Shown here in pieces: positions 37,221 to 55,583 of a stretch of DNA of 64,000 nt (position 1 is the stretch's first letter; each line of letters starts with the position of its first letter). This DNA comes from an uncultured Bacteroidota bacterium (GTDB lineage Bacteria; Bacteroidota; Bacteroidia; Chitinophagales; Chitinophagaceae). The DNA is taken from assembly GCA_903839875.1 (NCBI GenBank), contig CAIMDZ010000208.1:1-64000 (forward strand). Reading direction: 5' to 3'. The notes beneath the pieces were generated by a model, which did not search any database, was not told where the DNA came from, and saw only the letters and a program-made list of their open reading frames with translations. The position numbers and the translations under genes were made by a program.

Positions 37221-37308
37221 GGAGAGATGCTCGAGTGGTTTAAGAGGCACGCCTGGAAAGTGTGTATACCCCTAAAGGGTATCTGGGGTTCGAATCCCTA
37301 TCTCTCCG
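37221..37308 (+). tRNA. tRNA-Ser (anticodon GGA)
   Basis: An 88-nt class II tRNA. Acceptor GGAGAGA pairs with TCTCTCC, discriminator G. The anticodon loop is CTGGAAA, with a long variable arm (TATACCCCTAAAGGGTAT) and T-loop TTCGAAT. Its last 11 bases overlap the end of the convergent recombinase gene. Confidence 0.95.
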
Positions 37309-40687: not shown

Positions 40688-41059
40688 CTTTTTTCGTATT
40701 TCGATATTGAGTTCTTCTTCTGCAATATCAATCATCAGCTCCAGTCCAGTAATTTTCATCTGGGCGAGGGACAGCATTTTTTCTAATGCGTCATTTTGCT
40801 TTTTAAGCACTTGCAGGTCTCGGCTTTCTTGTTCTGTCAAAATAATTGGGGCGGGTATTTCACGACTAATGTCGGCAGAAAATTTCATTGCCCAACCTTT
40901 AAGTTGACCGGTAGAAATATTGTGTTTTTGAGCTAATTGAGCCTGACTCATTTTACCGGCGTGATATTCGCGAACAACCATGCGAATAAATGATAACTCG
41001 TATTGATAGCTTCTACCTCTTTTGTTTTTAAGACCTTGTGTTGTCTGTTTCTGTAGCAT
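40661..41059 (-). CDS. IS3-family transposase orfA (helix-turn-helix)
   Basis: 132 residues. The helix-turn-helix is in the first half (V-V-R-E-Y-H-A-G-K-M-S-Q-A-Q-L-A then N-I-S-T-G-Q-L-K-G-W). A leucine-zipper-like helix follows (L-Q-V-L-K-K-Q-N-D-A-L-E-K-M-L-S-L-A). It binds the IS ends, regulates transposition and supplies the N-terminus of the fused OrfAB transposase. It terminates 26 bases after the slippery site. Confidence 0.9.
   Translation of the reverse strand: MLQKQTTQGLKNKRGRSYQYELSFIRMVVREYHAGKMSQAQLAQKHNISTGQLKGWAMKFSADISREIPAPIILTEQESRDLQVLKKQNDALEKMLSLAQMKITGLELMIDIAEEELNIEIRKKPGTKQSEG
40688..40694 (-). promoter_or_regulatory. Programmed -1 frameshift site A AAA AAG
   Basis: On the minus strand the orfA frame reads CGA AAA AAG, so the heptamer A-AAA-AAG is in the correct phase for -1 slippage. 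After slippage the frame runs open through all of orfB. This is the canonical IS3-family signal. Confidence 0.85.
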
Positions 41060-41338
41060 ATATTACACTTTTTAAGTGTAAACTTTTTGTAGGACTAGAC
41101 AATTATTTTCCTATTGACAAAAAGTCCTGCCAAATTCAACCTGTTATACTGCTATGATGGCAGAATTAGAGTGGAATTAAAAGTCAGTTTCTATGGTGAA
41201 CGCCTCTGCTGCATAAATGTTTGCTTTTCCGGGTTCATGACGAATAGTGCATGAGATTATTGAGTTCTTTGACCCAATGCTACTTTATACAGTGGTTTTC
41301 AAGTACAATTGCTCTTATTATTTATAACGCCAACAAAA

Positions 41339-41905
41339 TTGCAGTATGTGCCAATCACAACAACTTTTACCCCTTCCAAAATATTGCGACCGTTTGTGAA
41401 AGCATTTGCAATTAGCCAAAGATTGAAGGCAGGTAACTATAAAGTATTCCCTGACACCTGCATCGTGATGGGTTTTCAGTATTCGGGCAAACATTGTTAC
41501 ATAGATAATGGTCAATCCATATTATTGGGTTCTGCTTGAATTACTGGTTTAAACGACACATTCAGGATATTTCAAAACTCAGCCAATACAACTACGCTGT
41601 TCGTGATATTTTCAGAAACTGGTGCCGGTGCTTTTTTTAAATATTCTATGCACCTGCTTTTTGGTCAGTGTTTACCGTTGGATAATCTCATATTAGGTGT
41701 AGTGGCGTATCTAAATGACCTTAATAAACGACTTTTATGTAAATCTGAAATAATAAAAGAATATATGCAACTTGAAAACAAACGGGCAGTTTTATCAAAG
41801 GAAATCGAACGCTGCAACATACAGATACATAAGCTGCACACCAGTATTGCAGACCTAAATCAACGAAGATCACAAATAGAATTTGATTTGGGAATTACTA
41901 ATTAA
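41339..41905 (+). pseudogene. Decayed AraC-type regulator (DUF6597-like N-terminus)
   Basis: One frame encodes L-Q-Y-V-P-I-T then L-R-P-F-V-K-A-F-A-I-S, V-F-P-D-T-C-I-V-M-G-F-Q-Y-S-G and S-I-L-L-G-S-A. After a TGA (41537-41539) it continues I-T-G-L-N-D-T-F-R-I-F-Q-N-S-A-N and S-E-T-G-A-G-A-F-F-K. This is the sensory N-terminal domain of a family of AraC-like regulators. The stop replaces a Gly codon expected in A-G-I-T-G. The last 65 codons (Y-L-N-D-L-N-K-R-L-L-C onward) are coiled-coil-like and there is no AraC DNA-binding domain. The gene is broken at both start and end. Confidence 0.65.
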
Positions 41906-42045
41906 ATTAATTATATACATGGATGTGCAGTAATGTTTATGTACAAACCTGAACCTAAATCCTTTTTTTTAGAATTCTATTATCGCCTTCAAATCTGCCA
42001 TAAAAAAGTTCGAAAGTTGTCCCTTACAGCCCGCCTTGGCCCGCC

Positions 42046-42065
42046 ATCCCGATAGCTATCGGGAT
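42046..42065. repeat. GATAGCTATC palindrome, copy 3
   Basis: ATCCCGATAGCTATCGGGAT is a perfect 20-nt palindrome. It is flanked by GCCCGCC and GGCGGGC (42029-42080), so the whole unit can fold into a longer hairpin. Otherwise 41906-42186 holds no gene. Confidence 0.75.
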
Positions 42066-42186
42066 CAGCGTAGGCGGGCTGTTCATCGGTTAGTTCTTAG
42101 CTGATCGGTGGAATAAAGTTAAGCAGGCGGGCTTCGGCGGACGAAGTCCGCTTTTTTATTTGGCGTATGTTCATATTTTAGCTATC

Positions 42187-42393
42187 ATGTGGTATTATGT
42201 CTATATCCTTGAATTAAGTAATGGCAAGCACTACGTCGGTTGTACGGTCAACATAAAAGAAAGATTTACCCGACATACAAAAGGATATGTTCCCGCAACT
42301 AAGCCGCATCTTCCGGTAAAGTTATTATGGTGCTGCACTTTTCAAAACAGATGCAATGTTCCTGGAATAAACATGATAAAAATCATATTTTAA
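42187..42393 (+). pseudogene. Truncated GIY-YIG endonuclease
   Basis: From the ATG at 42187: W-Y-Y-V-Y-I-L-E-L-S-N-G-K-H-Y-V-G-C-T, then E-R-F-T-R-H and P-V-K-L-L-W. This is the core of the small GIY-YIG proteins common in Bacteroidota. After C-T-F-Q-N-R the normal end (a Phe/Glu helix, K-Y-L-K-S-G-S-G) is lost and unrelated codons follow. The fragment lacks the conserved Glu helix and is probably inactive. Confidence 0.7.
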
Positions 42394-42408
42394 TATTTCA
42401 GTTAATAA

Positions 42409-42416
42409 TACTTTTG
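42409..42416 (+). promoter_or_regulatory. -7 promoter box of the metal-efflux operon
   Basis: TACTTTTG, 13 bases before the ATG at 42429, matches TAnnTTTG. Confidence 0.6.
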
Positions 42417-42428
42417 TATTTCTATTAA

Positions 42429-42827
42429 ATGAAACGCCTTTTAGTAACCTTCTTATCTGTACTATACCTGGCCAGTGCACTGAGCCTGACCGTGCATGTG
42501 CATTATTGTATGGGTAAGTTTGCCGGACTAAACTTCATGCATTCTGTTGAAGAGCGTTGTGGTAAATGCGGAATGAAAAAAACTGAAAGGAGCAAAGGCT
42601 GTTGCAAGGATGATTATAAGACCTTTAAAATTAATGATCACCAACAGGCAAAAATAACCTTTGATTTTTCTCATCAGCTCATTTCAATTATCCATCATCC
42701 GGTGTATTGCTACTCTTCCGACGTGGTTTATCCACGTATCACTGAGCAAATCAATCTGGCAAATGCCCCGCCATCACTCTGGCGAACATGCCCGATATAC
42801 ATATTGAATCAGGACTACCGTATCTGA
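42429..42827 (+). CDS. HYC_CC_PP family protein, copy 1
   Basis: 132 residues. The signal-like N-terminus is followed by H-V-H-Y-C-M-G-K (H25-Y-C27). C44-G-K-C47-G-M and K-G-C-C59-K-D come next, then a less conserved half ending with the family's Pro-containing C-terminal segment. The family is named after these conserved residues. It is found near copper and heavy-metal efflux genes in Bacteroidota, and the Cys, His and Met residues suggest periplasmic metal binding. Nearly the same protein is encoded at 50220-50615, on the far side of the Cus genes. Confidence 0.85.
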   Translation: MKRLLVTFLSVLYLASALSLTVHVHYCMGKFAGLNFMHSVEERCGKCGMKKTERSKGCCKDDYKTFKINDHQQAKITFDFSHQLISIIHHPVYCYSSDVVYPRITEQINLANAPPSLWRTCPIYILNQDYRI

Positions 42828-42946
42828 CAGCATAGTTTTTATATAAGCAATAATGAATAGGAATGCAGTGATGCAAAGCCTTTTTCATTATTGCTGTTCT
42901 GTTTTTTACAAATCAATCATTTTTTTTAAACTCAAAAACAACAATA

Positions 42947-43282
42947 ATGAAAAATCTGAAATTTTTAATCGCAGCCGTATTTATGTGCTTAGGGCTATCC
43001 TCTTATGCCCAGACAAAAACTGAAACAATCAAAGTATCCGGAAACTGTGGCATGTGCCAGAAACACATAGAAAAAGCTGCAAAAGAAGCTGGTGCAGACA
43101 AAGCAAAATGGGATAAAAAAGCAAAAATACTTACTGTTACCTACGATGCGTCCAGGTCATCGAATGATGCCATTCAGAAAAAAGTAGCATCAGTGGGCTA
43201 TGATACTGAAAAATACCCCGGCGATATGAATGCATACAAGGCGCTGGATGAGTGCTGCCAGTATGATGGAAAGAAGAAGTAA
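42947..43282 (+). CDS. Periplasmic heavy-metal-associated (HMA) domain protein
   Basis: 111 residues. The signal peptide ends S-S-Y-A-Q. The HMA fold follows with the metal-binding G-N-C34-G-M-C37 loop and V-G-Y-D-T-E-K-Y-P near the end. A C-terminal D-E-C-C-Q-Y-D tail adds two Cys. It probably binds Cu(I) or a similar ion in the periplasm and passes it to the RND pump encoded 36 bases downstream. Confidence 0.88.
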   Translation: MKNLKFLIAAVFMCLGLSSYAQTKTETIKVSGNCGMCQKHIEKAAKEAGADKAKWDKKAKILTVTYDASRSSNDAIQKKVASVGYDTEKYPGDMNAYKALDECCQYDGKKK

Positions 43283-43318
43283 CAGTGGTTATACGCCACA
43301 ATAAATAAATACTACAAC

Positions 43319-44599
43319 ATGGTTCGTAAACTCATAGAAATAGCGCTCCACAATAGATTCATTGTGCTGTTGATTTCAGCCTGCCTGTTTGGGTGGGGAG
43401 TGTACAGTGTGCAGCATAACCCGGTGGATGCTATTCCTGACCTTTCGGAAAACCAGGTAATCGTATTTACAGAATGGATGGGCCGCAGCCCGCAGGTAAT
43501 CGAAGATCAGGTTACTTTTCCACTGGTAAGCAATCTGCAGGGTGTGCCAAAGGTTAAAAATATCCGGGGGGCGTCTATGTTCGGGATGAGTTTTGTGTAC
43601 GTAATCTTTGAAGACAACGTAGATATTTACTGGGCTAGGACAAGGGTGCTGGAACGGTTAAATTATGCGCAAAGATTATTACCGCAAGGTGTCACTCCCA
43701 CACTTGGCCCTGACGGTACAGGTGTAGGGCATATTTTCTGGTACACACTGGAGGCGAAACAGATGGACCTGGGTGAACAAAGGGCATTGCAGGATTGGTA
43801 TGTAAAGTTTGCACTTCAAACTGTGCCCGGAATAGCGGAAGTAGCTTCATTTGGCGGCTTTGAAAAGCAATACCAGCTTGTAGTTGACCCTGTTAAGCTA
43901 CAGTACTACAAGGTCTCATTGATGGATGTGATGAATAAAGTGAAAGCCAATAATAATGATGTGGGCGGAAGGAAATTTGAGATGAGCGATATGGCATACA
44001 TTATCAGGGGGCTTGGCTATGTAAAAAGTAAAGAAGACCTGGAAAGTATAGGTGTTGGAAATTATAATGGCATCCCTGTGAGGGTGAAGGATATTGCAAC
44101 CGTTCAGATGGGCGGCGATCTGAGGCTCGGCATTTTTGATGAGAATGGCGAAGGTGAGGTAGTAGGCGGTATTGTAGTGATGCGCTACGGAGAAAACGCA
44201 GACAGGGTGATTAAAGCGGTAAAGGCTAAAATGAAGGATGTAGAAAAAGGATTACCGGAGGGAGTAAAGTTTCATACTGCTTATGACAGAAGCGTTCTCA
44301 TAGAAGAAGCCATTCAGTCAGTAAAAGGGACGCTTATCGAAGTATTGATTACCGTGTCTATTGTAGTGATACTCTTTTTATTCCATTGGCGCAGCGCATT
44401 GATCATACTGATACAATTACCTATATCGGTAGCTGTCAGTTTCATTTTATTACAGGCTTTCGGACTTTCATCCAACATTATGTCTTTAACCGGAATTGCT
44501 TTGGCTATAGGATATGTGGTAGATGATGGAATAGTAATGGTTGAAAACGCATACAGGCATATTGCTGACGAACAATTAAAAAGGAAGCCGAATGTTTAA
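43319..44599 (+). CDS. CusA/CzcA RND pump, N-terminal part
   Basis: 426 residues corresponding to the first 40 percent of a heavy-metal RND transporter. It starts with R-K-L-I-E-I-A-L-H-N-R, has the P-V-D-A-I-P-D-L-S-E-N-Q-V segment, the first porter subdomains, and helices up to V-V-D-D-G-I-V-M-V-E-N-A, which carries proton-relay acids. It stops after L-K-R-K-P-N-V; the rest of the protein is in the +1 frame from 44592. Removing one base near 44591 joins both parts into a normal pump of about 1065 residues. Either a frameshift or a split gene with an 8-base overlap. Confidence 0.88.
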   Translation: MVRKLIEIALHNRFIVLLISACLFGWGVYSVQHNPVDAIPDLSENQVIVFTEWMGRSPQVIEDQVTFPLVSNLQGVPKVKNIRGASMFGMSFVYVIFEDNVDIYWARTRVLERLNYAQRLLPQGVTPTLGPDGTGVGHIFWYTLEAKQMDLGEQRALQDWYVKFALQTVPGIAEVASFGGFEKQYQLVVDPVKLQYYKVSLMDVMNKVKANNNDVGGRKFEMSDMAYIIRGLGYVKSKEDLESIGVGNYNGIPVRVKDIATVQMGGDLRLGIFDENGEGEVVGGIVVMRYGENADRVIKAVKAKMKDVEKGLPEGVKFHTAYDRSVLIEEAIQSVKGTLIEVLITVSIVVILFLFHWRSALIILIQLPISVAVSFILLQAFGLSSNIMSLTGIALAIGYVVDDGIVMVENAYRHIADEQLKRKPNV

Positions 44600-46517
44600 A
44601 TGGTTTAAGAAAAATAAAGATCCGCTTTCTTCGGAAGAACGGCTCAAAATTATAGAGCAGGCTGCAAAACAGGTTGGCCCCGGCGTTTTTTATTCCACGA
44701 TAGTAGCGCTGGTGTCTTTTCTGCCTGTTTTCATGCTTACCGGAATGGAGTACAAATTGTTCAGCCCTCTGGCATGGACGAAAACATTTATTCTTTTGGT
44801 TGACGCATTTCTTGCCATTACCCTTGCGCCTGTTTTAATTTCCTTCTTTCTGAGAGGCAGACTAAAACCCGAACATGCAAACCCGGTAGTGAGGGGGTTA
44901 GAATATGTGTATAAACCAATGCTGAAGCTGTGCCTTGACTGGAGAAAGACAACTATTGCCATAAATGTAATAGCAGTAATAATAGGAGGCATTATGCTTG
45001 CCCGTTTAGGGTCTGAATTTATGCCACCGCTGGATGAAGGTTCTATTTTATTTATGCCTGTTACCCTGCCGGATGTATCGAACTCTGAAGCAAAACGCAT
45101 TTTACAGATTCAGGATAAGCTGATAAAGGGCGTTCCGGAAGTAGCGAATGTAATGGGGAAGGCAGGCAGGGCAAATACAGCCACAGATAATTCACCTATC
45201 AGCATGATAGAGACAATAATACTGTTAAAACCTAAGGCCGAATGGAGGAAGGGACTGACTAAGGAGGATATTATCAATGAGCTAAATGCAAAACTTCAAA
45301 TTCCCGGAACGACCAATGGTTGGACGCAACCAATTATTAACCGCATCAATATGCTGAGTACAGGAATCCGCACTGATGTAGGATTGAAAGTGTATGGCGA
45401 AAACCTGGATTCCATTTATGCACTTGCTCAAACACTAAGAAAGGGATTGGATGGGATACCCGGCATAAAGGATCTGTATGTAGAGCCTATTACAGGCGGG
45501 AAATATATTGACATCGCGGTGAAAAGAGAGGAAATAGGCAGATACGGGCTAAGCGTGGATGATGTGAATGCTACCGTGGAGAGCGCGCTAGGCGGGATGA
45601 AATTAACCACAACTATTGAAGGCCGCCGCCGTTTTTCGGTAAATGCTAGATTCGGGCAGGATTTCAGAAATAACCTCGATGCCATCAGGCATCTGCAGGT
45701 ACAAACGATGAACTTCGGACCTGTGCCGCTTGGCGCTGTTGCTGACATTAGTATATCGGAAGGCCCGCCAATGATCAATTCGGAAAACGCTTTACTAAGG
45801 GGCGCAGTGCTGTTTAACGTGCGTGACAGAGACCTTGGAGGTACCGTAAAAGAAGCCCAGCAAAAATTAGATGCCCTGGTAAAAAAGTTACCTAAAGGGT
45901 ATTTTATTGAATGGAGCGGGCAATGGGAAAACCAGATAAGGGCAAACAAGACTTTAAAACTCATCATACCCATTGTACTCATTCTGATATTCCTTGTACT
46001 CTATGCTACCTATCATTCATTTAAAGAATCAATTCTTACAATGATCACCGTTCCGGTAGGCTTGGTAGGCGGGGTAGTAATGGTTTATTTCTACGGAGTA
46101 AATTTATCGGTAGCGGTAGCAATAGGATTTATAGCCTTATTTGGTGTGGCTACTGAGCTGGCCATGCTGATGACCATATACCTGAATGAGGCAATGCAAA
46201 ACCTGGTCAGGGATAAAGGCAATTCAAAGGAAACAATTTCCACCACCGATTTGCGTACCTATATTATAACCGGTGCAACAAAACGACTACGACCCGTGTT
46301 CATGACTGTTTCGGTAGACCTGTTCGGGCTTATTCCTATTTTATGGGCAACTGGAGTAGGAAGCGATGTAATGCGCCCCATCACTATACCGCTGATAGGA
46401 GGAACAATAACAACGGTGATTTTTGTAATGTTCGTAACACCTGTGGTACTTGAAATTGCAAAAGAACAGGAACTGAAACGTAATGGTAAAATCACTTTAA
46501 TAGATGCACATGAATAG
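44592..46517 (+). CDS. CusA/CzcA RND pump, C-terminal part
   Basis: 641 residues. It starts M-F-K-W-F-K-K-N-K-D-P, continues with the transmembrane segments after the proton-relay helix (F-L-P-V-F-M-L-T-G-M), and holds the second porter half and final helices (I-A-L-F-G-V-A-T-E-L-A-M-L-M-T-I-Y). The order and content match the rest of CusA exactly, so nothing is missing between the two frames. Substrate is Cu(I)/Ag(I) or divalent ions; the HMA and HYC_CC_PP neighbours favour copper. The outer-membrane gene overlaps its end by 14 bases. Confidence 0.9.
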   Translation: MFKWFKKNKDPLSSEERLKIIEQAAKQVGPGVFYSTIVALVSFLPVFMLTGMEYKLFSPLAWTKTFILLVDAFLAITLAPVLISFFLRGRLKPEHANPVVRGLEYVYKPMLKLCLDWRKTTIAINVIAVIIGGIMLARLGSEFMPPLDEGSILFMPVTLPDVSNSEAKRILQIQDKLIKGVPEVANVMGKAGRANTATDNSPISMIETIILLKPKAEWRKGLTKEDIINELNAKLQIPGTTNGWTQPIINRINMLSTGIRTDVGLKVYGENLDSIYALAQTLRKGLDGIPGIKDLYVEPITGGKYIDIAVKREEIGRYGLSVDDVNATVESALGGMKLTTTIEGRRRFSVNARFGQDFRNNLDAIRHLQVQTMNFGPVPLGAVADISISEGPPMINSENALLRGAVLFNVRDRDLGGTVKEAQQKLDALVKKLPKGYFIEWSGQWENQIRANKTLKLIIPIVLILIFLVLYATYHSFKESILTMITVPVGLVGGVVMVYFYGVNLSVAVAIGFIALFGVATELAMLMTIYLNEAMQNLVRDKGNSKETISTTDLRTYIITGATKRLRPVFMTVSVDLFGLIPILWATGVGSDVMRPITIPLIGGTITTVIFVMFVTPVVLEIAKEQELKRNGKITLIDAHE

Positions 46518-47754
46518 GGCAATATTGATGATCGCTTTCTTGTACTGCGGCTTTAAAAGTGCGGCACTGACTATGAACCTGGACAGTATTTACAATGCGA
46601 TTAAAGTCAATAATCCAGGCTTGAAAATGTTTGATGCCGACATTCGGTCTATGGACGAATCGGCTAAGGGAGCAAGAAGCTGGATGCCGCCGGAGGCAGG
46701 AGCCGGTTTTTATATGACTCCATATGACCCGAAAATGTGGAGCAATACAGGGATGGGACAATCGGGGCAGTTTATGATATCGGCACAACAGATGTTTCCC
46801 AACCGAAGCAGGCAGAATGCGGAATCAAAATATATGCAGGCCATGTCGTCGGTAGAAAAGGATAAGAAGAATTATACGCTGAATGAATTATTTACCGAAG
46901 CAAAGAAAAGTTATTATGCCTGGATGATGGACAAACGGAAGCTGATAATCCTGGAACAGGATGAAAAGCTGCTGAACTTTATGATACAGAGTGCTGAGCT
47001 GAGATACAAAAATGGCATGGAGAAAATCAGCGCCTATTACAAAGCTAAAGCCGCGCTGGGAAATGTAGAAAATATGAGGATAATGCTGGAGAGTGAGATC
47101 AGGCAGCAGCGCATAGCTCTGAATACACTTATGTACAGAGGGCAGCAGGAAGCGCTGGAAATTGATACCGCTTATTTCATAAAAGACTATTCAGCATTGT
47201 TGCCTGACAGCACCCTGTTTATTAATTCCAGGAGCGACATAAAGGCAATTGAACAGAATATAAGCCTGGTCAATCTGCAGGTCAATGTGGAAAGAGCAAA
47301 GTTGAAACCAGAGTTTGGTATCAGGTATGACCATGCAATTGCTTTCGGCGACCAGACTATGCAGTTTTCGCTAATGGGGATGATCAAGATTCCAATGGCG
47401 CCATGGTCATCAAAAATGTATAAAGCGAACATTGAAGGGCTGAAATGGAAAGCCGAGGCGCTTGGTCTGCAAAGGTCAATGATGGTCAATGAAGCACAAG
47501 GAATGACAGGCGCCATGCTGGCAGACTTCGAAGCAAAAAAGAAACAGGTGCAGTTATTTGAAAACAATATCATCCCTGCATTAAGAAAGAACTACCAGAC
47601 CATGCAGTTAGGGTATGAACAAAACACAGAAGAATTGTTTATGCTGTTTGACGCATGGGAGGCATTGAATATGACACAACTCGAATACATAGACCAATTG
47701 CGCCAGTTGTTGCTGATGCAAAGTGACCTGGAAAAATTGCTGGAAATAAAATAA
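46504..47754 (+). CDS. CusC-type outer-membrane efflux protein (TolC family)
   Basis: 416 residues with a signal peptide, then long helices typical of TolC (S-A-E-L-R-Y-K-N-G-M-E-K-I-S-A-Y-Y-K and M-Q-L-G-Y-E-Q-N-T-E-E-L-F). Met is frequent in the N-terminal part (M-T-P-Y-D-P-K-M-W-S-N-T-G-M-G-Q-S-G), as in copper efflux proteins. It forms the exit duct for the CusA pump. Overlaps cusA-C by 14 bases and is followed after five bases by the first adaptor. Confidence 0.88.
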   Translation: MHMNRAILMIAFLYCGFKSAALTMNLDSIYNAIKVNNPGLKMFDADIRSMDESAKGARSWMPPEAGAGFYMTPYDPKMWSNTGMGQSGQFMISAQQMFPNRSRQNAESKYMQAMSSVEKDKKNYTLNELFTEAKKSYYAWMMDKRKLIILEQDEKLLNFMIQSAELRYKNGMEKISAYYKAKAALGNVENMRIMLESEIRQQRIALNTLMYRGQQEALEIDTAYFIKDYSALLPDSTLFINSRSDIKAIEQNISLVNLQVNVERAKLKPEFGIRYDHAIAFGDQTMQFSLMGMIKIPMAPWSSKMYKANIEGLKWKAEALGLQRSMMVNEAQGMTGAMLADFEAKKKQVQLFENNIIPALRKNYQTMQLGYEQNTEELFMLFDAWEALNMTQLEYIDQLRQLLLMQSDLEKLLEIK

Positions 47755-47759
47755 ATGGA

Positions 47760-48959
47760 ATGAGAAGGATCAATAAAATATTTTTTTCGGAACTGCTCGT
47801 TGTTATACTGGTACTCTCTATAACAGGATGCGGTGGTCCGAAAAAGAAGGATGATAAGCAACCGGATATGGCCAATATGGACATGCCCGGTAAAGATCAT
47901 ACAACTAAGGATATTCACATCAGTGATACAAGGTTATCATCATTGCTGAAACCGACCGACGGATTTGTCATTTCTTCCATTCCTACTACAACTATTAAGA
48001 AGACTGAAGTAAGCCCTGTGATTACCGGGCTGGGCAAGGTTGCTTACGACACGCGCCAGGTGGGAGTTGTATCATCAAGGATTGCAGGCAGAATAGAAAG
48101 GCTTTATGTTCGCTATCGCTATCAAAAGATCAGTAAAGGGGAGAAGATTATGGACATCTATAGCCCTGAATTACAGACTAATCAGGAAAATCTTTTGTTC
48201 CTGCTGAAGAACGACCCCGGCAATACTTCACTCATTAATGCAACCAGAGACAGGTTGCAACTATCAGGTATGAGTTCGGGACAGATTCAAACCGTTATTA
48301 ATTCCGGAAAGACCGTTCATGCCATATCCATTTTCAGTAATTACAGCGGACATATACACGAAGGCGGGACGGACAATGCAGGTATGAATAGTAATCCTGC
48401 TGCCATGAAAGATATTCCATCAACAACTGAACCATTATCTATTAAGGAGGGCATGTATGTACAAAAAGGGCAGGAGTTATTCAGCGTTTATGATCCGGGA
48501 AAGGCATGGGTGTTGTTAAGTATTTATACCGACAACCAGGATGCGGTTAAAGTGGGAGATCCGGTTCATCTTGTTTGTGAAACTTTTCCTGATAAGGATT
48601 TCAACGGTAAAATTGATTTTATTGAACCCTTTTTCAGGAAAGAGAGTAAAACACTTACCGCCAGGGTTTACTTCAACAATACAACTGTTCAGATACCTAT
48701 TGGCAGCCAGGTAAAGGCGACCATAAATACCAATAAACGAAGTATAACAACATTGCCGGCCAGTGCAGTTCTTTCGCTGGGTGTGGATAAAATAGTATTC
48801 GTAAAATTAAATGATGGATTCAAGGCTAAGAAAGTAGTTATCGGAAATCTCTACAATGACCAGGCAGAACTGTTAAGCGGCCTTTCAGCAAAGGATACAA
48901 TTGCGGTAAATGCTCAATTTTTAATGGATAGTGAAAGTTTCATAAAAGTAAATGAATAG
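47760..48959 (+). CDS. CusB-type RND adaptor lipoprotein 1
   Basis: 399 residues. The lipobox is S-I-T-G-C24. A Met/His-rich stretch follows (M-A-N-M-D-M-P-G-K-D-H), then the adaptor fold: barrel-sandwich motif R-I-A-G-R-I-E-R-L-Y, a short hairpin with I-Y-S-P-E-L-Q-T-N-Q-E-N-L, a beta-barrel with D-P-G-K-A-W-V-L-L, and a membrane-proximal domain. It bridges CusA and CusC. The gap to the next adaptor is two bases. Two different adaptors in one operon could form a mixed ring. Confidence 0.9.
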   Translation: MRRINKIFFSELLVVILVLSITGCGGPKKKDDKQPDMANMDMPGKDHTTKDIHISDTRLSSLLKPTDGFVISSIPTTTIKKTEVSPVITGLGKVAYDTRQVGVVSSRIAGRIERLYVRYRYQKISKGEKIMDIYSPELQTNQENLLFLLKNDPGNTSLINATRDRLQLSGMSSGQIQTVINSGKTVHAISIFSNYSGHIHEGGTDNAGMNSNPAAMKDIPSTTEPLSIKEGMYVQKGQELFSVYDPGKAWVLLSIYTDNQDAVKVGDPVHLVCETFPDKDFNGKIDFIEPFFRKESKTLTARVYFNNTTVQIPIGSQVKATINTNKRSITTLPASAVLSLGVDKIVFVKLNDGFKAKKVVIGNLYNDQAELLSGLSAKDTIAVNAQFLMDSESFIKVNE

Positions 48960-48961
48960 GT

Positions 48962-50146
48962 ATGAAAGCGGCACAAATATTATTGCTTATCTTTTTCCTG
49001 GCAGCCTGCAAGGGTAAGCCTGAGAAAGAGGTAAAGAAAGAGGAAATCTATTACACATGCTCTATGGACCCCCAGGTAAAGCAATCTACCCCTGGTAAAT
49101 GTCCGATATGTGGCATGGCGCTGGTAGAGGCCAGCAAATTGAAGCCAAATGGGGATGATGAGATTATACTCACCGAACAGCAGGTACTGCTTAGCAATAT
49201 CAGCGTTGATACGATCCATAATGGTATGATGGGAGGCCAGCTTATATTGACCGCCACAGTAAATTTCGACCAGGCAAAAATATCCGCAATAAGTTCAAGG
49301 ATAATGGGCAGAATAGAAAAACTTTACTTCAAGAACCAGGGTGATTTTGTAAAGAAAGGTGATAAATTGTATGAGCTATACAGTGAAGATCTCAACAATG
49401 CTAAAAAAGAATACATTCTGGCAAATGAAAAAAAAATAGCCCTCGGTAATTCCGTAATAGACTTTGACCAGATAATAAGAAGCGCTAAAAATAAACTGCT
49501 GTTGTGGGGAATGACAGAATCACAGATACAAAATTTAGCAGTTGCAAAAGATGCCGGATCAACCACGTCAATTTACAGCAATGCCAGTGGCTATATTACC
49601 ACTCTGAACGTAAAGGAAGGTGAATATGTAATGGAAGGAGGTATGATAGCCCAGCTTGCAGACCTTTCCACCTTATGGGTGGAAGCACAGGTATATAGTT
49701 CGGAATTGTCGGAAATAAAAAAAGATGCAATTGCAGAGATACAGATTGGGCAGGAAACATTTAAAGGGAAAATTGAGTTTATAAATTCAGAACTCAACGC
49801 CGACAGCAGGATTAACATGATACGTGTAAGTATTCCAAACAGAAGCAACCAGTTTAAACCCGGTATGCCGGCCACGGTTACCATAGTAAACCCTAAACAT
49901 AATATGCTGTCACTACCCATTGACGCAGTGCTCAGAGACGGAAAAGGAGCAACAGTGTGGGTAATGACCGCAATGCGAACATTTAAAAACATAATGGTAG
50001 AAACAGGTATGGAGACGGGTAATCAGATCGAAATCACTTCCGGGCTGGAGGATGGCGATGTTGTTGTGATAACGGGCGCCTACCTGCTTAACAGTGAGTA
50101 TATTTTCAAACGAGGCGCAGACCCGATGGAGGGAATGAAAATGTAA
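48962..50146 (+). CDS. CusB-type RND adaptor 2 with heavy-metal-binding domain
   Basis: 394 residues. Lipobox F-F-L-A-A-C16. Residues 30-54 are a heavy-metal-binding domain: Y-Y-T-C33-S-M-D-P and C47-P-I-C50-G-M52. The adaptor fold follows with R-I-M-G-R-I-E-K-L-Y, L-Y-S-E-D-L-N-N-A-K-K-E-Y and a beta-barrel (L-S-T-L-W-V-E-A-Q-V-Y). The metal domain probably captures ions in the periplasm and hands them to CusA. The downstream gap is 73 bases, then the second HYC_CC_PP gene. Confidence 0.92.
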   Translation: MKAAQILLLIFFLAACKGKPEKEVKKEEIYYTCSMDPQVKQSTPGKCPICGMALVEASKLKPNGDDEIILTEQQVLLSNISVDTIHNGMMGGQLILTATVNFDQAKISAISSRIMGRIEKLYFKNQGDFVKKGDKLYELYSEDLNNAKKEYILANEKKIALGNSVIDFDQIIRSAKNKLLLWGMTESQIQNLAVAKDAGSTTSIYSNASGYITTLNVKEGEYVMEGGMIAQLADLSTLWVEAQVYSSELSEIKKDAIAEIQIGQETFKGKIEFINSELNADSRINMIRVSIPNRSNQFKPGMPATVTIVNPKHNMLSLPIDAVLRDGKGATVWVMTAMRTFKNIMVETGMETGNQIEITSGLEDGDVVVITGAYLLNSEYIFKRGADPMEGMKM

Positions 50147-50219
50147 ATCCGGTGACACAGCAATTATGACGAAGATCATGAATTAGATTAAAACGTAGTA
50201 ATAATTTTGAAATTACAGC

Positions 50220-50615
50220 ATGAAAAAGTTTTTGGTAACCATCTTATCTGTTCTATACATGGCCAGCGCCATGGGTGCAACTTTGCATGTTCATTATTGC
50301 ATGGGTAAGATTGCAGAAGTTGGTTTTTCTCACAATGAAGAAGATCGCTGTAGTAAATGTGGCATGAAAAAAGCAGACAGAAACAAGGGCTGCTGCAAGG
50401 ATGAGTATAAGACATTTAAAACCAATGACCATAAAATTTCAAAGGCAATTTATGATTTTTCACACCAAATAATTTCTTCTCCGGGAGCAACAAGTTTTGA
50501 CTTAAGAGCGCAACAGTTTACAGACTGCTTCCGGGTTAAGAACATAAACTATATACCACCTTTAGATCACCGCAATTGTCCCATCTTTATTAAAATCCGA
50601 AACTTCAGGATTTAA
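50220..50615 (+). CDS. HYC_CC_PP family protein, copy 2
   Basis: 131 residues, closely similar to copy 1 (42429-42827): K-F-L-V-T-I-L-S-V-L-Y, H-V-H-Y-C-M-G-K, C44-S-K-C47-G-M-K-K and K-G-C-C59-K-D are all shared, with the second half diverged. The same length, the same Cys positions and a place in the same metal region point to duplication. It begins the second half of the operon, which adds a PKD lipoprotein, two cytochromes and a porin. Confidence 0.85.
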   Translation: MKKFLVTILSVLYMASAMGATLHVHYCMGKIAEVGFSHNEEDRCSKCGMKKADRNKGCCKDEYKTFKTNDHKISKAIYDFSHQIISSPGATSFDLRAQQFTDCFRVKNINYIPPLDHRNCPIFIKIRNFRI

Positions 50616-50751
50616 ACCAATTACAAATTTTGATGAATCCCCATATTCTTTGAGGGATGTACTTTGTTTTTACTTAGCACTCCATACCAGGAGCTGTTCA
50701 ACTAAATAATTATCTAAAAATATTTTTTACAAAAAATTAAATCAAACAAAA

Positions 50752-51066
50752 ATGAAATCATATATCAGTGTATTCAGTTTAGTAATCGTTGCATTACTTA
50801 CCTTCTCAAATTGCGCGAAGAAAGAAAAAGACCCTATGGCTTGTTGCACAGTTCCCACAACAGGTGTGGTTGGAACGTCAGTAAGTTTCAGCTCAACCTG
50901 CAGTATGGATGCAACTGACTTCGTATGGTCTTTTGGCGACGGGGATTCAAGCATGGTTGCAAACACCACTCATACCTATTCAGCCGCTGCTACTTATACG
51001 GTAAAATTGATGGCCATGAAAGGCAGTAAAATGAATACGGCATCTGCATCAATTGTGATTCATTAA
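50752..51066 (+). CDS. PKD-domain lipoprotein
   Basis: 104 residues. Lipobox T-F-S-N-C, then K-K-E-K-D-P-M-A-C-C. One PKD domain follows with the signature F-V-W-S-F-G-D-G-D-S-S and T-H-T-Y-S-A-A-A-T-Y-T-V. PKD domains mediate protein or carbohydrate contacts outside the cell. The two adjacent Cys and a Met-containing C-S-M-D motif are unusual for such a domain and could bind metal. It is followed after 11 bases by the cytochrome gene. Confidence 0.8.
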   Translation: MKSYISVFSLVIVALLTFSNCAKKEKDPMACCTVPTTGVVGTSVSFSSTCSMDATDFVWSFGDGDSSMVANTTHTYSAAATYTVKLMAMKGSKMNTASASIVIH

Positions 51067-51077
51067 AATGGTATATT

Positions 51078-51476
51078 ATGAAACCGGTATTCATAATTAT
51101 TTTGTCAGGTTTTGCATTTAGTTTTTCCATCTCAAAGGCCTGTGCTGATAGTAAAGAATGGATTGCTCCGTCAAATGCAAAAGATATTGCAAATCCGCTC
51201 AAAGGAAATACAGCGGCCACAATGGAAGGTAAAAAATTGTTTACACAATTGTGTGTTGTCTGCCATGGAGAAAAAGGTAAAGGAGACGGGGTAGGTGGAG
51301 CTGCGCTTAATCCTAAACCGCGCAATTTCACCCTGGATAAAACGCAGAATCAGACTGATGGGGAATTCTTCTGGAAACTAAGCGAAGGCAGGATTCCTAT
51401 GGCAAGCTATAAGACCATACTAACTACAAATCAACGCTGGCAATTAGTCAATTATTTAAGAACTTTTAAAAAATAA
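51078..51476 (+). CDS. Periplasmic cytochrome c
   Basis: 132 residues. The signal peptide ends near A-C-A (residue 23). The haem motif is C59-V-V-C62-H63 in L-C-V-V-C-H-G-E-K-G-K-G-D-G, and the likely axial ligand is the Met in R-I-P-M-A-S-Y. This is a standard class I cytochrome c fold. The position between the metal-efflux genes and a porin suggests a redox role in metal handling, which is inference. The porin gene starts four bases after the stop. Confidence 0.88.
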   Translation: MKPVFIIILSGFAFSFSISKACADSKEWIAPSNAKDIANPLKGNTAATMEGKKLFTQLCVVCHGEKGKGDGVGGAALNPKPRNFTLDKTQNQTDGEFFWKLSEGRIPMASYKTILTTNQRWQLVNYLRTFKK

Positions 51477-51480
51477 GGTA

Positions 51481-52737
51481 ATGATCAGAAAAATAATTTT
51501 ATTGATCCTGGTTATGGGCATAGGCAAATCCTATGCCCAGGATACCAAAGAACCTCAGAATGATGGAACGGCTACTGAAGTCGTTACGCCACCAAAAGAA
51601 GAGAAATCACATTTTATGCTTCGTGGTTTTGCCCAGTTCGGATTAGATGCATCCTCAGACAATGTTGAGTTCAACATGACATCCTTTAATCCTGTAATAC
51701 TTTACAGGCAAGGCGACCGATTTTTGTTTGAAAGTGAACTGGAAATGGAATATATGTCCAATGAATTCAGCCTTAATCTCGGCTATGCCAGTGCATCCTA
51801 TATTATCACAAAAGGGGTAACTGTAAAAGTTGGTAAAATACTTATTCCTTTCGGTGAATTTGGCGAGAAATTACATCCGTCATGGGTCAATAGAATGGCC
51901 GATGCGCCGCTTGGATTAGGCCATGATGGTGGAATGCTGCCCATGGCTGATATAGGAGTAGAGTTACGCGGCGGCCTGCAAATGGGTAAATCGAAACTGA
52001 GCTACTCCATCTATTGTGTAAATGGACCAAGATTAAAAGACGGTACAATGGGCCAGGAAGAAGCGGGAATGTTATCGTGGGAAAATATGAATGACAACAA
52101 TAAAAATAAAGCGTTGGGCGCAAGGATAGGCATCTTGCCATTATCCAATTCATCTCTGGAAATTGGTTTCTCGGGATATTATGCAAAGCCGGGCAATTCA
52201 ACTTCTCCTTATGCCGGCGATTCAATGAATATGGACCTTAATTACAAGGATGTGACTGCATTGCTGACAGCTATTGATCTGTCTTATGTAAAACAAATAG
52301 CGCCATTAAAAGGAGTCATTGACATCAAAGGCCAGTATAACATGTCTGATGTAAGCAATGCGACTTATCTGAAACCCGGTGATACAAACCGGCTTACCAA
52401 CCGTTATACTTTCACCAACAGCAGCACCGCGTATTATGCACAACTTGCTTACCGCCCCACAATGGCCGGAAATAAAATATTGAAGAATATTGAAGTGGTA
52501 GGACGATACTCGGTATATAATACCCCAGTGGGCTCACTTTGGGAGAGTACACAATCGCAAATTTCATTAGGACTTAATTATTGGTTTAGCTGGAGAACGG
52601 TGCTTAAAGTTGGTTACCAAATGAGCGATGGAGTACCGGCCGGCATGAGCGGCATGAGCATGGGAGGTGCCAGTATGAGCAGTATGAGTACATCCACCGT
52701 TAATACATTTCAAATCCATTTAGCTATGGGGTTGTAA
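51481..52737 (+). CDS. Porin-like outer-membrane protein
   Basis: 418 residues. The signal peptide ends K-S-Y-A-Q. The barrel-type sequence includes L-R-G-F-A-Q-F-G-L-D-A and V-G-K-I-L-I-P-F-G-E-F-G-E, the latter as in phosphate-selective (OprO/OprP-like) porins, where the channel loop follows. It has a Met-rich C-terminal stretch (M-S-G-M-S-M-G-G-A-S-M-S-S-M-S), unusual for a porin and in keeping with Cu(I) contact. It forms an outer-membrane pore; the substrate is not known. Confidence 0.82.
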   Translation: MIRKIILLILVMGIGKSYAQDTKEPQNDGTATEVVTPPKEEKSHFMLRGFAQFGLDASSDNVEFNMTSFNPVILYRQGDRFLFESELEMEYMSNEFSLNLGYASASYIITKGVTVKVGKILIPFGEFGEKLHPSWVNRMADAPLGLGHDGGMLPMADIGVELRGGLQMGKSKLSYSIYCVNGPRLKDGTMGQEEAGMLSWENMNDNNKNKALGARIGILPLSNSSLEIGFSGYYAKPGNSTSPYAGDSMNMDLNYKDVTALLTAIDLSYVKQIAPLKGVIDIKGQYNMSDVSNATYLKPGDTNRLTNRYTFTNSSTAYYAQLAYRPTMAGNKILKNIEVVGRYSVYNTPVGSLWESTQSQISLGLNYWFSWRTVLKVGYQMSDGVPAGMSGMSMGGASMSSMSTSTVNTFQIHLAMGL

Positions 52738-52756
52738 ACTTTTTAAAAAGCCATTT

Positions 52757-53026
52757 ATGAATAAGATAAAAGTAATAACAGGATTGATGTTTTCCGTATT
52801 GATAGCAACAATATTTACTCAGAGTTGCACTACATCAAAAATGATTGAACAAAAATCAGGAGCGCAGTTGTGGGGTGAAAACTGCATCCGATGCCACAAC
52901 ATGCCTTCCCCCGCAGATTTTACCGATGTCCAGTGGGCGACTATTGGTTTGCATATGCAAGACCGTGTGAATCTGACAGATGCGGAAGCAAAAAAGATAG
53001 TTGACTTTATGAAATCTGCGAATTAG
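52757..53026 (+). CDS. Small cytochrome c lipoprotein
   Basis: 89 residues. The lipobox-like T-Q-S-C24 follows a signal. C43-I-R-C46-H47 binds haem, and Met67 in L-H-M-Q-D-R may be the sixth ligand. At about 65 residues the mature domain is among the smallest class I cytochromes. As the last certain gene of the metal operon it may pass electrons together with the cytochrome at 51078-51476. Confidence 0.8.
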   Translation: MNKIKVITGLMFSVLIATIFTQSCTTSKMIEQKSGAQLWGENCIRCHNMPSPADFTDVQWATIGLHMQDRVNLTDAEAKKIVDFMKSAN

Positions 53027-53073
53027 TACCATGCATTTGCAGAATACATAAAACACTTCGCGTTACTCCACCA

Positions 53074-53184
53074 ATGGAGGCAAAACTAATTACTAAGTCA
53101 ATAACCATAGGGGACATAGTTACATTGGTCTATGCTGATGAAATAGAGGCGGCAAACAAGCGAAAAGAAAGAATGACATGGTAA
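53074..53184 (+). CDS. Possible 36-residue peptide
   Basis: An ATG frame encoding M-E-A-K-L-I-T-K-S-I-T-I-G-D-I-V-T-L-V-Y and 16 more residues, ending eight bases before the operon terminator. The composition is plausible for a small protein, but there is no homologue I recognise, and it could be an untranslated tail. Confidence 0.3.
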   Translation: MEAKLITKSITIGDIVTLVYADEIEAANKRKERMTW

Positions 53185-53192
53185 TAAAACAG

Positions 53193-53216
53193 GGCTGCAA
53201 TCGCAGCCTTTTTATT
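53193..53216 (+). terminator. Terminator of the metal-efflux operon
   Basis: GGCTGC (53193-53198), loop AATC, GCAGCC (53203-53208), then TTTTTATT. Confidence 0.85.
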
Positions 53217-53233
53217 ACCTTTAGTTTTCAAAT

Positions 53234-53476
53234 ATGGGGATGAGAATTATTATAGATATATTTCTTACTTTGATTGCGGTATTTTTTACTACTAATTTCG
53301 TAGCGGCCACATTAGGTGTTACCTTTTTAGTCGTTATGAGTATAGGGGGTGGGTTTTATGAATGGGACTGGTTAACTATTTTGATAGTTTTAGCATTTCT
53401 TATGGTCAGCCTTCTTTTATCGCTATTATCTTTGTTTTTTTTAAAAAAATATAGGTTAAAATATCCCGAAAACTAA
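53234..53476 (+). CDS. Small membrane protein
   Basis: 80 residues with two long hydrophobic segments (about 4-38 and 45-70) separated by G-G-G-F-Y-E-W-D-W, and a basic C-terminus K-K-Y-R-L-K-Y. A two-helix inner-membrane protein of unknown function. It starts 18 bases after the metal operon's terminator and is a separate unit. Confidence 0.6.
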   Translation: MGMRIIIDIFLTLIAVFFTTNFVAATLGVTFLVVMSIGGGFYEWDWLTILIVLAFLMVSLLLSLLSLFFLKKYRLKYPEN

Positions 53477-53531
53477 ACTAAATTTTCATTAACAATCAAA
53501 CTGAGACACACCGAAAGTAAATTTTGAAGTA

Positions 53532-54563
53532 CTACCCTTTTAATTTCACCATCATAAAACGGTACGACAACCCCAGGGTAAAAAAGTATTGCGAGGCAAT
53601 TGCTGTTCCATTTACGTATTGGTAAAGCGGAAGCTCGTATAAGGCATAGACGGAAAATGTTTTGTAGCTATAACTGAGCTGGGGAACAAACATTATTTTT
53701 TTCCCGCCGGTAGAAGTTACATCGAGGTTGTATTTTGCCAGCATGTCAATGCTTTTATCATACTTCATGGCATCCACCCACTCGCCTTTTACCTGGAGCG
53801 TTACCCCCAGCTTATTGAAGTAGGTTTTCCCGGCATACAATGCAAGGCTTGCATAGTCTCCGAATCTCTGCCCGATAGGGTTCCAGCCTTTTCTTACATA
53901 CAGCATGCTGGTAAATATCCTGAACTTTTTTGCGGGGTATCCACGGTATCCAAAACCATAAAATATAAAATCCTGCGAACCGGTAGAGGGCATTACAGCA
54001 GGAGGTTTAGGAGTGAAATAATTTTTACCTGAGTGCGGGTCTGTATATACTACATATGAATCGAGGTATTTACCTACCGGTATTTTTACACCCATTCCTA
54101 ATGCGATCTCATTGCGCGTCTTCTCGGTATTTTTTGTATAGACGTCATAGCGGGGAAAAATAATAATGTCACCAATTCCGGAGCAGTTGGCTTTACTGTT
54201 ATCAGGCCAGACCTGGGTTTTATTAAAATAATAACCGGCTTCTAATGACACGGTTAAATTTTTTGTGGCTCCGTAAGCAAAGCGTGTATACAGATATTCA
54301 CTGTTATAGTTTTTCAGAAAATTCGTCGTATCATGAGTTCCTGTCTTAAATTTATCTGAATTAATATACTGGAAGCTTGTGCCAATTTCGGCCTGCCTGT
54401 CGGCCAGCACACCCTGTGAAGTACCTCCGGCAATAGGGCTGCCACTGCCACCTGAACAGCAACCCTGTCCGTAATTATCGCCCGGCATTAAAAATAAACA
54501 GGGTAAAATAAACAATAAAGCCCGAAGGAAATATCGTGACCGGAAATAATAAATTGACTGCAT
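53532..54563 (-). CDS. Outer-membrane protein with N-terminal CCSGG motif
   Basis: 343 residues. The signal peptide ends D-N-Y-G-Q, after which the mature protein begins G-C-C-S-G-G-S-G-S-P-I-A-G-G. The remainder is a barrel with many aromatic strands and a terminal Y-R-F-M-M-V-K-L-K-G. The paired Cys at the N-terminus could coordinate metal or form a disulfide with a partner, for example the thioredoxin-like protein encoded 23 bases upstream in the same direction. The function is otherwise unknown. Confidence 0.75.
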   Translation of the reverse strand: MQSIYYFRSRYFLRALLFILPCLFLMPGDNYGQGCCSGGSGSPIAGGTSQGVLADRQAEIGTSFQYINSDKFKTGTHDTTNFLKNYNSEYLYTRFAYGATKNLTVSLEAGYYFNKTQVWPDNSKANCSGIGDIIIFPRYDVYTKNTEKTRNEIALGMGVKIPVGKYLDSYVVYTDPHSGKNYFTPKPPAVMPSTGSQDFIFYGFGYRGYPAKKFRIFTSMLYVRKGWNPIGQRFGDYASLALYAGKTYFNKLGVTLQVKGEWVDAMKYDKSIDMLAKYNLDVTSTGGKKIMFVPQLSYSYKTFSVYALYELPLYQYVNGTAIASQYFFTLGLSYRFMMVKLKG

Positions 54564-54586
54564 GGTACAACAATTAAATACTGCAA

Positions 54587-55366
54587 CTATTTATCAACAA
54601 CGAACTTAAATGATTCTGTTGATTCACCTGCCTTGATTTTCAGATAATAAATGCCATTACTGATCTTATTGGTAAAATTGATAAGCAACTCATGCTTTCC
54701 GGATGATTGTTTTTCATTAAAAACAGAAACTATCCTGGAACCAATAATATTGTAGATATCAATGGATACATCTAAGGATTGAGGCAAAGAATAGCTTAAG
54801 GATATTTGATCTTTTGCAGGGTTAGGAAACAAAGAAAGGTTGAATCCTGCATTGTTGATTTGCGGAACAGCGGTTGTTGCCAGGGCAGAATTGATAGCAT
54901 TTTTCAATAAGGTAGTATCAAGGCTGCCGCCATTATGGTTAAAAAAAACATGGTGGTTAGCGCCTCCCAAAACTACAATTTTGGGCATTGCTATTACGCC
55001 ATAATCCGATTCTCTGAAAGTAAGATCGGAAAAATCAGGAGCGCTGCCCATTCCATTGGTTGTTGCCCAACTGCTTAATGTTGCACACGGCGTATTTGCA
55101 GCATCATCGGAAATGTAAAACAATACTGTACCTGGATTGGTGACAGCATATTCCTGTACCATGCTTTGTGCAGACAAGGAAGGGGCAATACAAGAACCGC
55201 ATGGCATCACAAATGATACTACAATTACTTTACCGGCATCAAGTTCTGCAAAAAGATGATGAGGGTTTCCGGCGCAATCGTTTGCGGTAAAATCTACGGC
55301 AGTCTGGGAAAAACAGGATAATGTTTTAATCGTTAAAAGCAGACAAAAAAGAGTATATTTATTCAT
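54587..55366 (-). CDS. Secreted thioredoxin-like protein with T9SS domain
   Basis: 259 residues from the ATG at 55366. Signal peptide (S-C-F-S-Q), then a TlpA/AhpC-like domain starting F-T-A-N-D-C-A-G-N-P-H-H-L-F with the redox motif M-P-C-G-S-C and I-A-M-P-K-I-V-V-L (cis-Pro). Residues about 175-259 are a T9SS type A sorting domain (L-S-L-F-P-N-P-A-K-D-Q-I-S-L and G-I-Y-Y-L-K-I). It should act as a thiol-disulfide enzyme outside the outer membrane or on the surface, possibly upon the CCSGG protein encoded downstream. Confidence 0.85.
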   Translation of the reverse strand: MNKYTLFCLLLTIKTLSCFSQTAVDFTANDCAGNPHHLFAELDAGKVIVVSFVMPCGSCIAPSLSAQSMVQEYAVTNPGTVLFYISDDAANTPCATLSSWATTNGMGSAPDFSDLTFRESDYGVIAMPKIVVLGGANHHVFFNHNGGSLDTTLLKNAINSALATTAVPQINNAGFNLSLFPNPAKDQISLSYSLPQSLDVSIDIYNIIGSRIVSVFNEKQSSGKHELLINFTNKISNGIYYLKIKAGESTESFKFVVDK

Positions 55367-55583
55367 ACCTGAATTTATTTTACACCTAATATACAAAATA
55401 GCAGTAATTCACTTCTAAAATTATGACAGTGGTCAGGTAAAAATACTGAAAACGGGGCAAATTATTGTATTTATGAAACAAGTGCTTTGCGAGCTAAAAA
55501 TGCAATAGGTACTACCATAGAGCTCTATCAATTGATTATAAATAGCGCAAATCAACCAATCAACTTATCAACCTATCAACTTA

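Follow-up and report, generated by a model that had tools for sequence, protein, structure and literature searches.

The 64,000-nt window analysed here (the whole stretch of DNA, G000:C208:1-64000, from a draft genome of 5.29 Mb) contains a run of genes in which the pump protein CusA is encoded in two pieces and is followed, further downstream, by a trio encoding a monoheme cytochrome (CytA), a porin and a second, small monoheme cytochrome (CytB) (Table 1). With a probability of roughly 0.6, we read this region as Cu(I)/Ag(I) efflux by a two-chain CusA lying beside an outer-membrane electron-transfer module of monoheme cytochromes. The genes probably form two tandem, copper-related units, of which unit 1 (HYC1-HMA-CusA_N-CusA_C-CusC-CusB1-CusB2) would provide a tripartite Cu(I)/Ag(I) efflux pump and unit 2 (HYC2-PKD-CytA-porin-CytB) a redox module of the outer membrane.

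CusA encoded in two pieces

The original prediction, a first reading of this DNA, had listed a normal HMA/CusA/CusC/CusB set followed by a second adaptor with its own metal-binding domain. The HMA protein, a TolC-type CusC and two CusB-type adaptors, the second carrying an HMBD metal-binding domain, were all recovered by Pfam; CusA, however, is not normal, since it consists of two open reading frames (ORFs) in different frames that overlap by 8 nt. PF00873 covers both halves, and the nearest solved relative of each is E. coli CusA (3k07), matched over residues 10-430 by the N-half (E 6e-129) and over residues 429-1044 by the C-half (E 3e-159). Because the two matches abut in this way, the break falls in the loop between transmembrane helices (TM) 4 and 5, which we take, from the CusA/AcrB topology, to be cytoplasmic.

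When the C-half was searched against the 195 family genomes (E <= 1e-120), 68 of them gave matches (78 rows, window included). The open frame was 690 aa or shorter in 76 of the 78 rows, two of which (G137 and G129) are partial or at contig ends, and was full length in the other two. The N-half lay upstream in 29 of the 30 loci that were fetched, the remaining locus ending at a contig edge. Across 29 loci the N-halves are 75-85% and the C-halves 67-78% identical to those of the window. In a phylum sample of 395 genomes, some shared with the family set, all 29 rows with at least 55% identity had a short frame (643-728 aa), whereas 95 of the 97 rows with at most 53% identity were full length, the exceptions being G450 and G509:C166 with shorter frames of 913 and 720 aa. 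The two halves are also listed as separate coding sequences on plasmids of Haliscomenobacter hydrossis, Adhaeribacter swui and Hymenobacter sp. DG25B. The RefSeq locus tags of these plasmid halves (L286, L287 and L288) are out of series, for example HALHY_RS38435/RS38440, and the halves were perhaps once listed otherwise, e.g. as one frameshifted gene.

The overlap of two ORFs in different frames would also be expected of a frameshift, whether due to a sequencing error, to decay into a pseudogene or to programmed frameshifting that yields a full-length protein, and the window copy does carry an odd residue at one functional site (see below). The same break, however, recurs in unrelated assemblies and genera. 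All three relative frames of N-half and C-half were observed (5, 6 and 18 loci), and the distance between the halves ranges from overlaps to +192 nt (for gaps under -8 the start was taken as the most upstream ATG/GTG and is not firm), so that no single recoding event explains the split. In one locus (L136) two whole genes for HMBD proteins lie between the halves, on one strand and with gaps of 5-19 nt. Together with the retained sequence identity and metal site, the recurrent break, the varied frames and gaps and the intervening genes led us to reject a frameshift or pseudogene, which we regard as extremely improbable; that the split is real is practically certain. Literature searches of open-licence PMC papers found no published split CusA.

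A tree of 68 of the 74 C-half rows (without five distant rows and one at a contig end; quick method, SH-aLRT support) placed 52 split rows, three unsplit rows and one undetermined row in a single clade with support 100. The unsplit rows (L087, L257 and L258) are tips within this clade and four state changes suffice to explain the pattern; the placement of L236, a long branch, is unsure. One fission followed by three fusions is the simplest history, while counts on the tree cannot fix its direction. Since the same two genes are fused in these tips, the halves would be expected to act together, meeting in the inner membrane so that TM1-4 and the first periplasmic half join TM5-12 and the second half with its three metal-binding Met. 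At the sites of M573, M623 and M672, the Cu(I)/Ag(I)-binding Met of CusA, Met was present in all 57 clade rows, window included. Of the residues that we take to form the proton relay, E939 is represented by Glu in 56 of 57 rows, including the window, and K984 by Lys in 56 of 57, the window itself having Val (GTG, 46296-46298).

Unit 1 resembles E. coli CusCBA in combining a resistance-nodulation-division (RND) protein, an adaptor and an outer membrane factor, in the Met triad sites, in an HMBD on an adaptor and in having CusA (3k07) as nearest solved relative of both CusA halves. It differs in that CusA is cut into two chains at the TM4-TM5 loop, so that the single polypeptide per protomer of CusA is not found here, and in having two adaptors and an adjoining HMA protein and HYC protein. 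The E. coli system also has CusF, for which no search was made here. SecD and SecF are likewise RND relatives in two chains, divided at the 6+6 TM midpoint, and the split CusA is like them a two-chain RND-type protein but divided 4+8. The two-chain CusA is a new variant of a known pump. That a large Bacteroidota clade has retained a protomer cut between TM4 and TM5 amounts to an experiment by nature on RND folding and assembly, to which the apparent rejoining of the halves in three tips adds, and it carries the warning that such gene pairs resemble frameshifted genes.

A cytochrome-porin-cytochrome trio

The original prediction of a cytochrome c, a porin with a Met-rich end and a second small cytochrome held for all three genes. 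CytA has one CxxCH; CytB has a CxxCH as well, with a Pfam score of 23.9 bits that lies slightly below the cut-off of 27. The porin gave no Pfam match up to E 0.1, and its model (m4743de45a2dc, mean pLDDT 84.4) is a barrel of 16 strands of 8 or more residues with a Met-rich last loop. In Foldseek searches the model matched PorB (E 1.2e-11) and OprO (4rjw, E 1.8e-9, TM-score 0.54, rmsd 9.2), with many general porins ranking above OprO.

Porin relatives were found in 35 of the 195 family genomes, and CytB relatives in 40 of the 395 phylum genomes (E <= 0.001), of which some ten were strong matches. A named set was formed from the best 80 of 280 CytB relatives (CytB alignment, genome contigs), a choice biased toward window-like loci; within it 78 of 80 loci had a porin match and 71 of 80 a CytA match, usually in the same order CytA-porin-CytB, with a median gap of 19 nt at each junction (68 and 72 measured). 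The records carrying the trio are labelled Bacteroidetes/Bacteroidota, Chlorobiota, Calditrichota and Neomarinimicrobiota, and the closest named relatives by CytB are uncultured Bacteroidetes metagenome-assembled genomes. Cultivable carriers of the trio include Hydrotalea sandarakina and Lewinella cohaerens. Exactly one CxxCH was present in each of 102 distinct CytA and 101 distinct CytB proteins, and in none of 110 distinct porins, while 67 of 73 CytB proteins have a lipobox-like signal by a simple pattern. The trio is a conserved unit of the Fibrobacteres-Chlorobi-Bacteroidetes (FCB) group, mostly without metal genes, and very probably a functional one.

Related parts are fused in other lineages, which argues that cytochromes and barrel form a working unit. 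On a Legionella anisa plasmid (L283:8654-11580), three CytA-like heme domains of a 758-aa protein precede a barrel homologous to the porin (E 9e-24), and the adjoining gene encodes a CytB domain (E 9e-18) together with a CytA-like domain; the match of CytA to the fused protein is weak (4e-6 for the CytA of the window, 2e-8 for the best of six CytA tried). An Alteromonas plasmid (L284:9833-11541) carries a porin (E 6e-24) and then a cytochrome in which a CytB domain (E 4e-14) is accompanied by a second heme motif, and a Glaciecola plasmid (L285:9833-11553) a like-placed porin whose next gene is annotated as hypothetical.

In PMC8406198, Cyc2 is described as a fused monoheme cytochrome-porin iron oxidase whose 16-strand porin is structurally like OprO and whose cytochrome has the motif AXPXFAR[QK][TY] before CXXCH. 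The trio shares with this description the single-heme cytochrome and a predicted 16-strand, OprO-like barrel, and differs in having separate genes and two cytochromes. The shorter form of the motif, PXFAR[QK][TY], was found in 0 of 102 CytA and 0 of 101 CytB proteins, and membership in Cyc2 was rejected on this ground and because cytochrome and porin are unfused. MtrCAB and MtoAB, according to the same paper (PMC8406198), combine multiheme cytochromes with a 26-strand barrel. They and PCC3 and PCC4 (PMC5566968) resemble the trio in that cytochromes are encoded beside an outer membrane barrel, sometimes with inner-membrane redox partners, whereas the trio is monoheme and its barrel has 16 strands in place of the 26 of MtrCAB/MtoAB. 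With one CxxCH per cytochrome and 16 strands, the trio does not belong to the MtrCAB type. The trio is close in design to Cyc2 and to the porin-cytochrome complexes, and literature searches on it led to papers on these systems, but it lacks defining features of each.

By analogy with an unfused Cyc2, soluble CytA would exchange electrons with lipid-anchored CytB through or at the 16-strand porin; that the trio transfers electrons at or across the outer membrane has, in our judgement, not quite an even chance. The porin could alternatively act as a channel for metals or solutes, functionally analogous to PcoB/CopB, with cytochromes that merely serve the periplasm, since its barrel resembles general porins and the last loop is Met-rich in the porin clade of the window. 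We consider this improbable: no Pfam family, and so not CopB, matched the porin, the trio stays together in loci free of metal genes, and in Legionella the cytochrome domains are fused to the barrel itself. If the trio does transfer electrons, it would be a minimal alternative, open to testing, to the multiheme wires of the outer membrane for Bacteroidota, Chlorobiota and Calditrichota.

Two probable tandem units and their link to copper genes

The original prediction had treated the region as a single operon, which now appears doubtful. Three copies of TAnnTTTG, which we take to be the Bacteroidota-type -7 promoter element, lie on the + strand between 42000 and 53300, and two of these stand shortly before HYC1 and HYC2, respectively. 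For the named set plus the two genes of the window, such a box lies within 80 nt upstream of 11 of 16 HYC genes, compared with 104 of 763 ORFs of at least 150 aa (Fisher 1e-6), a contrast that is overstated because the comparison set contains operon-internal genes; in the same comparison the box was found at 3 of 70 CytA, 1 of 78 porin, 2 of 73 CytB and 0 of 20 CusA genes. The ORFs came from a simple longest-ORF script, and some starts are wrong. No consensus TTG-N18-22-TAnnTTTG promoter was found on the + strand of 41000-56000, and matches in a sigma-70-type promoter scan were near the chance number. The order HYC2-PKD-CytA-porin-CytB also occurs without nearby Cus genes (L079 and L080), and HYC-PKD-porin-CytB in L092 and L104. 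Since boxes precede both HYC genes and an HYC-led second unit occurs without Cus genes, the region probably consists of two tandem HYC-led units, as judged from the sequence.

The original prediction had further coupled the cytochrome/porin part to metal export, an idea that it would have given up if this part occurred elsewhere independently of metal genes. Loci were counted as metal-linked when at least two of eight metal gene families lay within about 10 kb, thresholds that we set ourselves. The sets for INDEPENDENCE and for the linkage counts comprised 40 extended family loci (up to two per genome, some genomes being shared with the named set), 14 phylum loci, 80 named loci and 20 random regions on large contigs of 8 genomes, where two overlapping random draws were replaced by hand-picked regions. 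Linkage was seen in 6 of 40 family and 25 of 80 named loci and in none of the 20 random regions; contig ends truncate many loci, and absence of metal genes is for that reason overcounted. Among loci with full flanks the figures were 14 of 34 for the named set (Fisher 0.0008 against the random regions) and 5 of 18 for the family set (Fisher 0.017). Cus genes followed by the trio on one strand were also observed in L086, L096 and L136. The trio does occur without metal genes in most loci, yet its linkage to copper genes exceeds that of random regions, and the co-occurrence is real and recurrent but optional.

It is a substantial possibility, if somewhat short of an even one, that the trio serves respiration or extracellular electron transfer in general and merely shares mobile islands with copper genes, passing electrons, e.g., from quinol via NrfD and an iron-sulphur (FeS) protein to CytA, porin and CytB and on to an outside acceptor or donor such as iron. 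The prevalence of metal-free trio loci and the Cyc2-like anatomy agree with this, as does the presence of NrfD/FeS genes upstream in 7 of 40 family loci. NrfD matched in 3 of 80 named loci and 0 of 20 random regions, and FeS in 7 family and 2 named loci. The Alteromonas porin-cytochrome pair and the Glaciecola porin lie in stretches that each hold a NiFe hydrogenase cluster. Those same stretches, however, also hold copC/copD; of the seven family loci with NrfD, six are themselves among the metal-linked ones, and in L047 Cus genes, HYC, FeS, NrfD and trio are consecutive on one strand. An HYC gene, moreover, heads unit 2, and the trio has been joined to copper genes repeatedly across the porin tree. 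In that tree (110 of 117 rows, identical ones dropped; quick method, LG+G4), all 32 metal-linked rows fall on one side (32 of 68) and none on the other (0 of 42), the dividing branch having support 91 and not being starred. The metal label changes 20 times, at least 11 of these changes being forced by starred branches, against a mean of 28 after shuffling, and is thus clustered. As far as these sequences indicate, the trio did not arise as a metal gene, and one of its lineages repeatedly joined copper islands.

In the reading of the region as copper efflux beside a redox module, electrons of unit 2 would, in copper islands, change the redox state of copper or relieve the respiratory chain. A specific role of the trio in copper defence in this genome is a tentative proposal, to which we give about one chance in three. 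The broader proposal is rather unlikely, namely that the trio is a new FCB-wide outer-membrane conduit made of two single-heme cytochromes and a separate 16-strand porin, supplied with electrons by various sources (NrfD/FeS, perhaps copper), that entered copper islands on many occasions and there lies beside a permanently two-chain CusA clade. The locus in any case lends itself to the question whether defence against copper extends to moving electrons across the outer membrane.

Several observations weigh against the reading that we prefer. Fewer than two metal families were found in 34 of 40 family loci, 13 of 18 full-flank family loci and 20 of 34 full-flank named loci, and only 2 of 14 loci of the phylum sample (porin match in 11 of 14) were metal-linked. 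When any one of CusA, Cu-ATPase, multicopper oxidase or HYC was accepted, 2 of 20 random regions also scored (19 of 34 named, 9 of 18 family and 3 of 14 phylum loci). A TAnnTTTG box precedes no more than 3 of the 9 HYC genes of the family set. A fold search with CytB gave no match with E <= 0.001, the PgcA cytochrome domain at rank 18 (E 9.6) being noise, and a pair of single hemes might not suffice to span a membrane. The Val at the K984 site suggests that the CusA copy of the window might be altered or impaired. A porin relative was found on only 3 of 72,556 plasmid records, all of Gammaproteobacteria and none of Bacteroidota, while split-type CusA (60-80% identity) is on 12, all of Bacteroidota; the two parts of the region are therefore separable and need not travel together. 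The Met-rich porin end appears, from the sequences compared, to characterise the clade of the window's porin, whether metal genes lie nearby or not.

As a mark of metal context this end was rejected, showing no signal beyond ancestry. In the last loop Met plus His came to 1.56 for metal-linked porins and 1.04 for the remainder (p 0.059), and His alone to 0.78 and 0.47 (p 0.030), while Met alone did not differ (p 0.86); in the rest of the porin Met plus His was lower in metal-linked porins (p 0.006). When 11 independent pairs were scored for having at least three Met plus His, the two members almost never differed.

Layout of the region and neighbouring genes

Both HYC_CC_PP proteins expected from the original prediction exceed the curated NF047658 cut-off. 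The spacing of 4-19 bases proposed for the second half holds from the PKD gene onward (gaps of 11, 4 and 19 nt from PKD through CytA and porin to CytB) and not around HYC2, which is flanked by gaps of 73 and 136 nt. The proposed closing terminator corresponds to a hairpin-like site, of a kind near its chance number in the region (11 sites versus 9.8 +/- 3.6 in shuffles). The PKD protein has the C-C and C-S-M-D motifs noted earlier, the latter not being conserved (C-S-T-N in the relatives L039 and L092), and was matched in 11 of 80 named trio loci.

Table 1 Features of the two putative units in the window
Feature	Position	Strand	Support
TAnnTTTG box TACTTTTG, putative Bacteroidota-type -7 promoter element, unit 1	42409..42416	+	motif scan
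HYC1, HYC_CC_PP family protein, 132 aa	42429..42827	+	NF047658 63.6 bits, cut-off 28
HMA-domain (MerP-like) metal-binding protein with CGMC, 111 aa	42947..43282	+	PF00403 26.1 bits, cut-off 24.8
CusA N-half, TM1-4 and first periplasmic part, 426 aa	43319..44599	+	PF00873 positions 2-420; 3k07 10-430
CusA C-half, TM5-12 and second periplasmic part, 641 aa	44592..46517	+	3k07 429-1044; holds the three Met of the Cu/Ag site
CusC, TolC-type outer membrane factor	46504..47754	+	PF02321
CusB1 periplasmic adaptor	47760..48959	+	PF16576, PF16572
CusB2 periplasmic adaptor with HMBD metal-binding domain	48962..50146	+	PF16576, PF19335 (HMBD 47.5 bits, cut-off 23.6)
TAnnTTTG box TAATTTTG, putative -7 element, unit 2	50202..50209	+	motif scan
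HYC2, second HYC_CC_PP protein	50220..50615	+	NF047658 56.6 bits, cut-off 28; blastp 51.9% identity to HYC1
PKD-domain lipoprotein-like protein, 104 aa	50752..51066	+	PF18911 49.5 bits
CytA, monoheme cytochrome c, signal-peptide-like start, 132 aa	51078..51476	+	PF00034 44.8 bits; one CxxCH
Porin, 418 aa, 16 long beta strands in model, Met-rich last loop	51481..52737	+	model m4743de45a2dc, Foldseek
CytB, 89-aa monoheme cytochrome, probable lipoprotein	52757..53026	+	invariant C24, CxxCH, H66-M67
Intrinsic-terminator-like hairpin with T tail	53191..53210	+	terminator scan; weak alone

The metal-gene stretch looks like accessory DNA, because two genomes of the same genus (G097 and G171) are without the porin and without a close CusA C-half and because recombinase and transposase genes lie just upstream of the metal genes, a serine recombinase at 37298-38881 and a transposase pair, IS3-like by our reading, at 39765-41059. 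Downstream, on the minus strand, 53532-54563 encodes an outer-membrane-type protein and 54587-55396 a CxxC redox-like protein with a secretion-tail domain. Since the clusters of these two proteins recur in trio loci (7 and 9 of 81, window counted), the island may reach to 55396. Elsewhere in the window, 31815-32612 encodes a 265-aa HlyD-type adaptor whose matches end inside the domain profiles and which is perhaps truncated.

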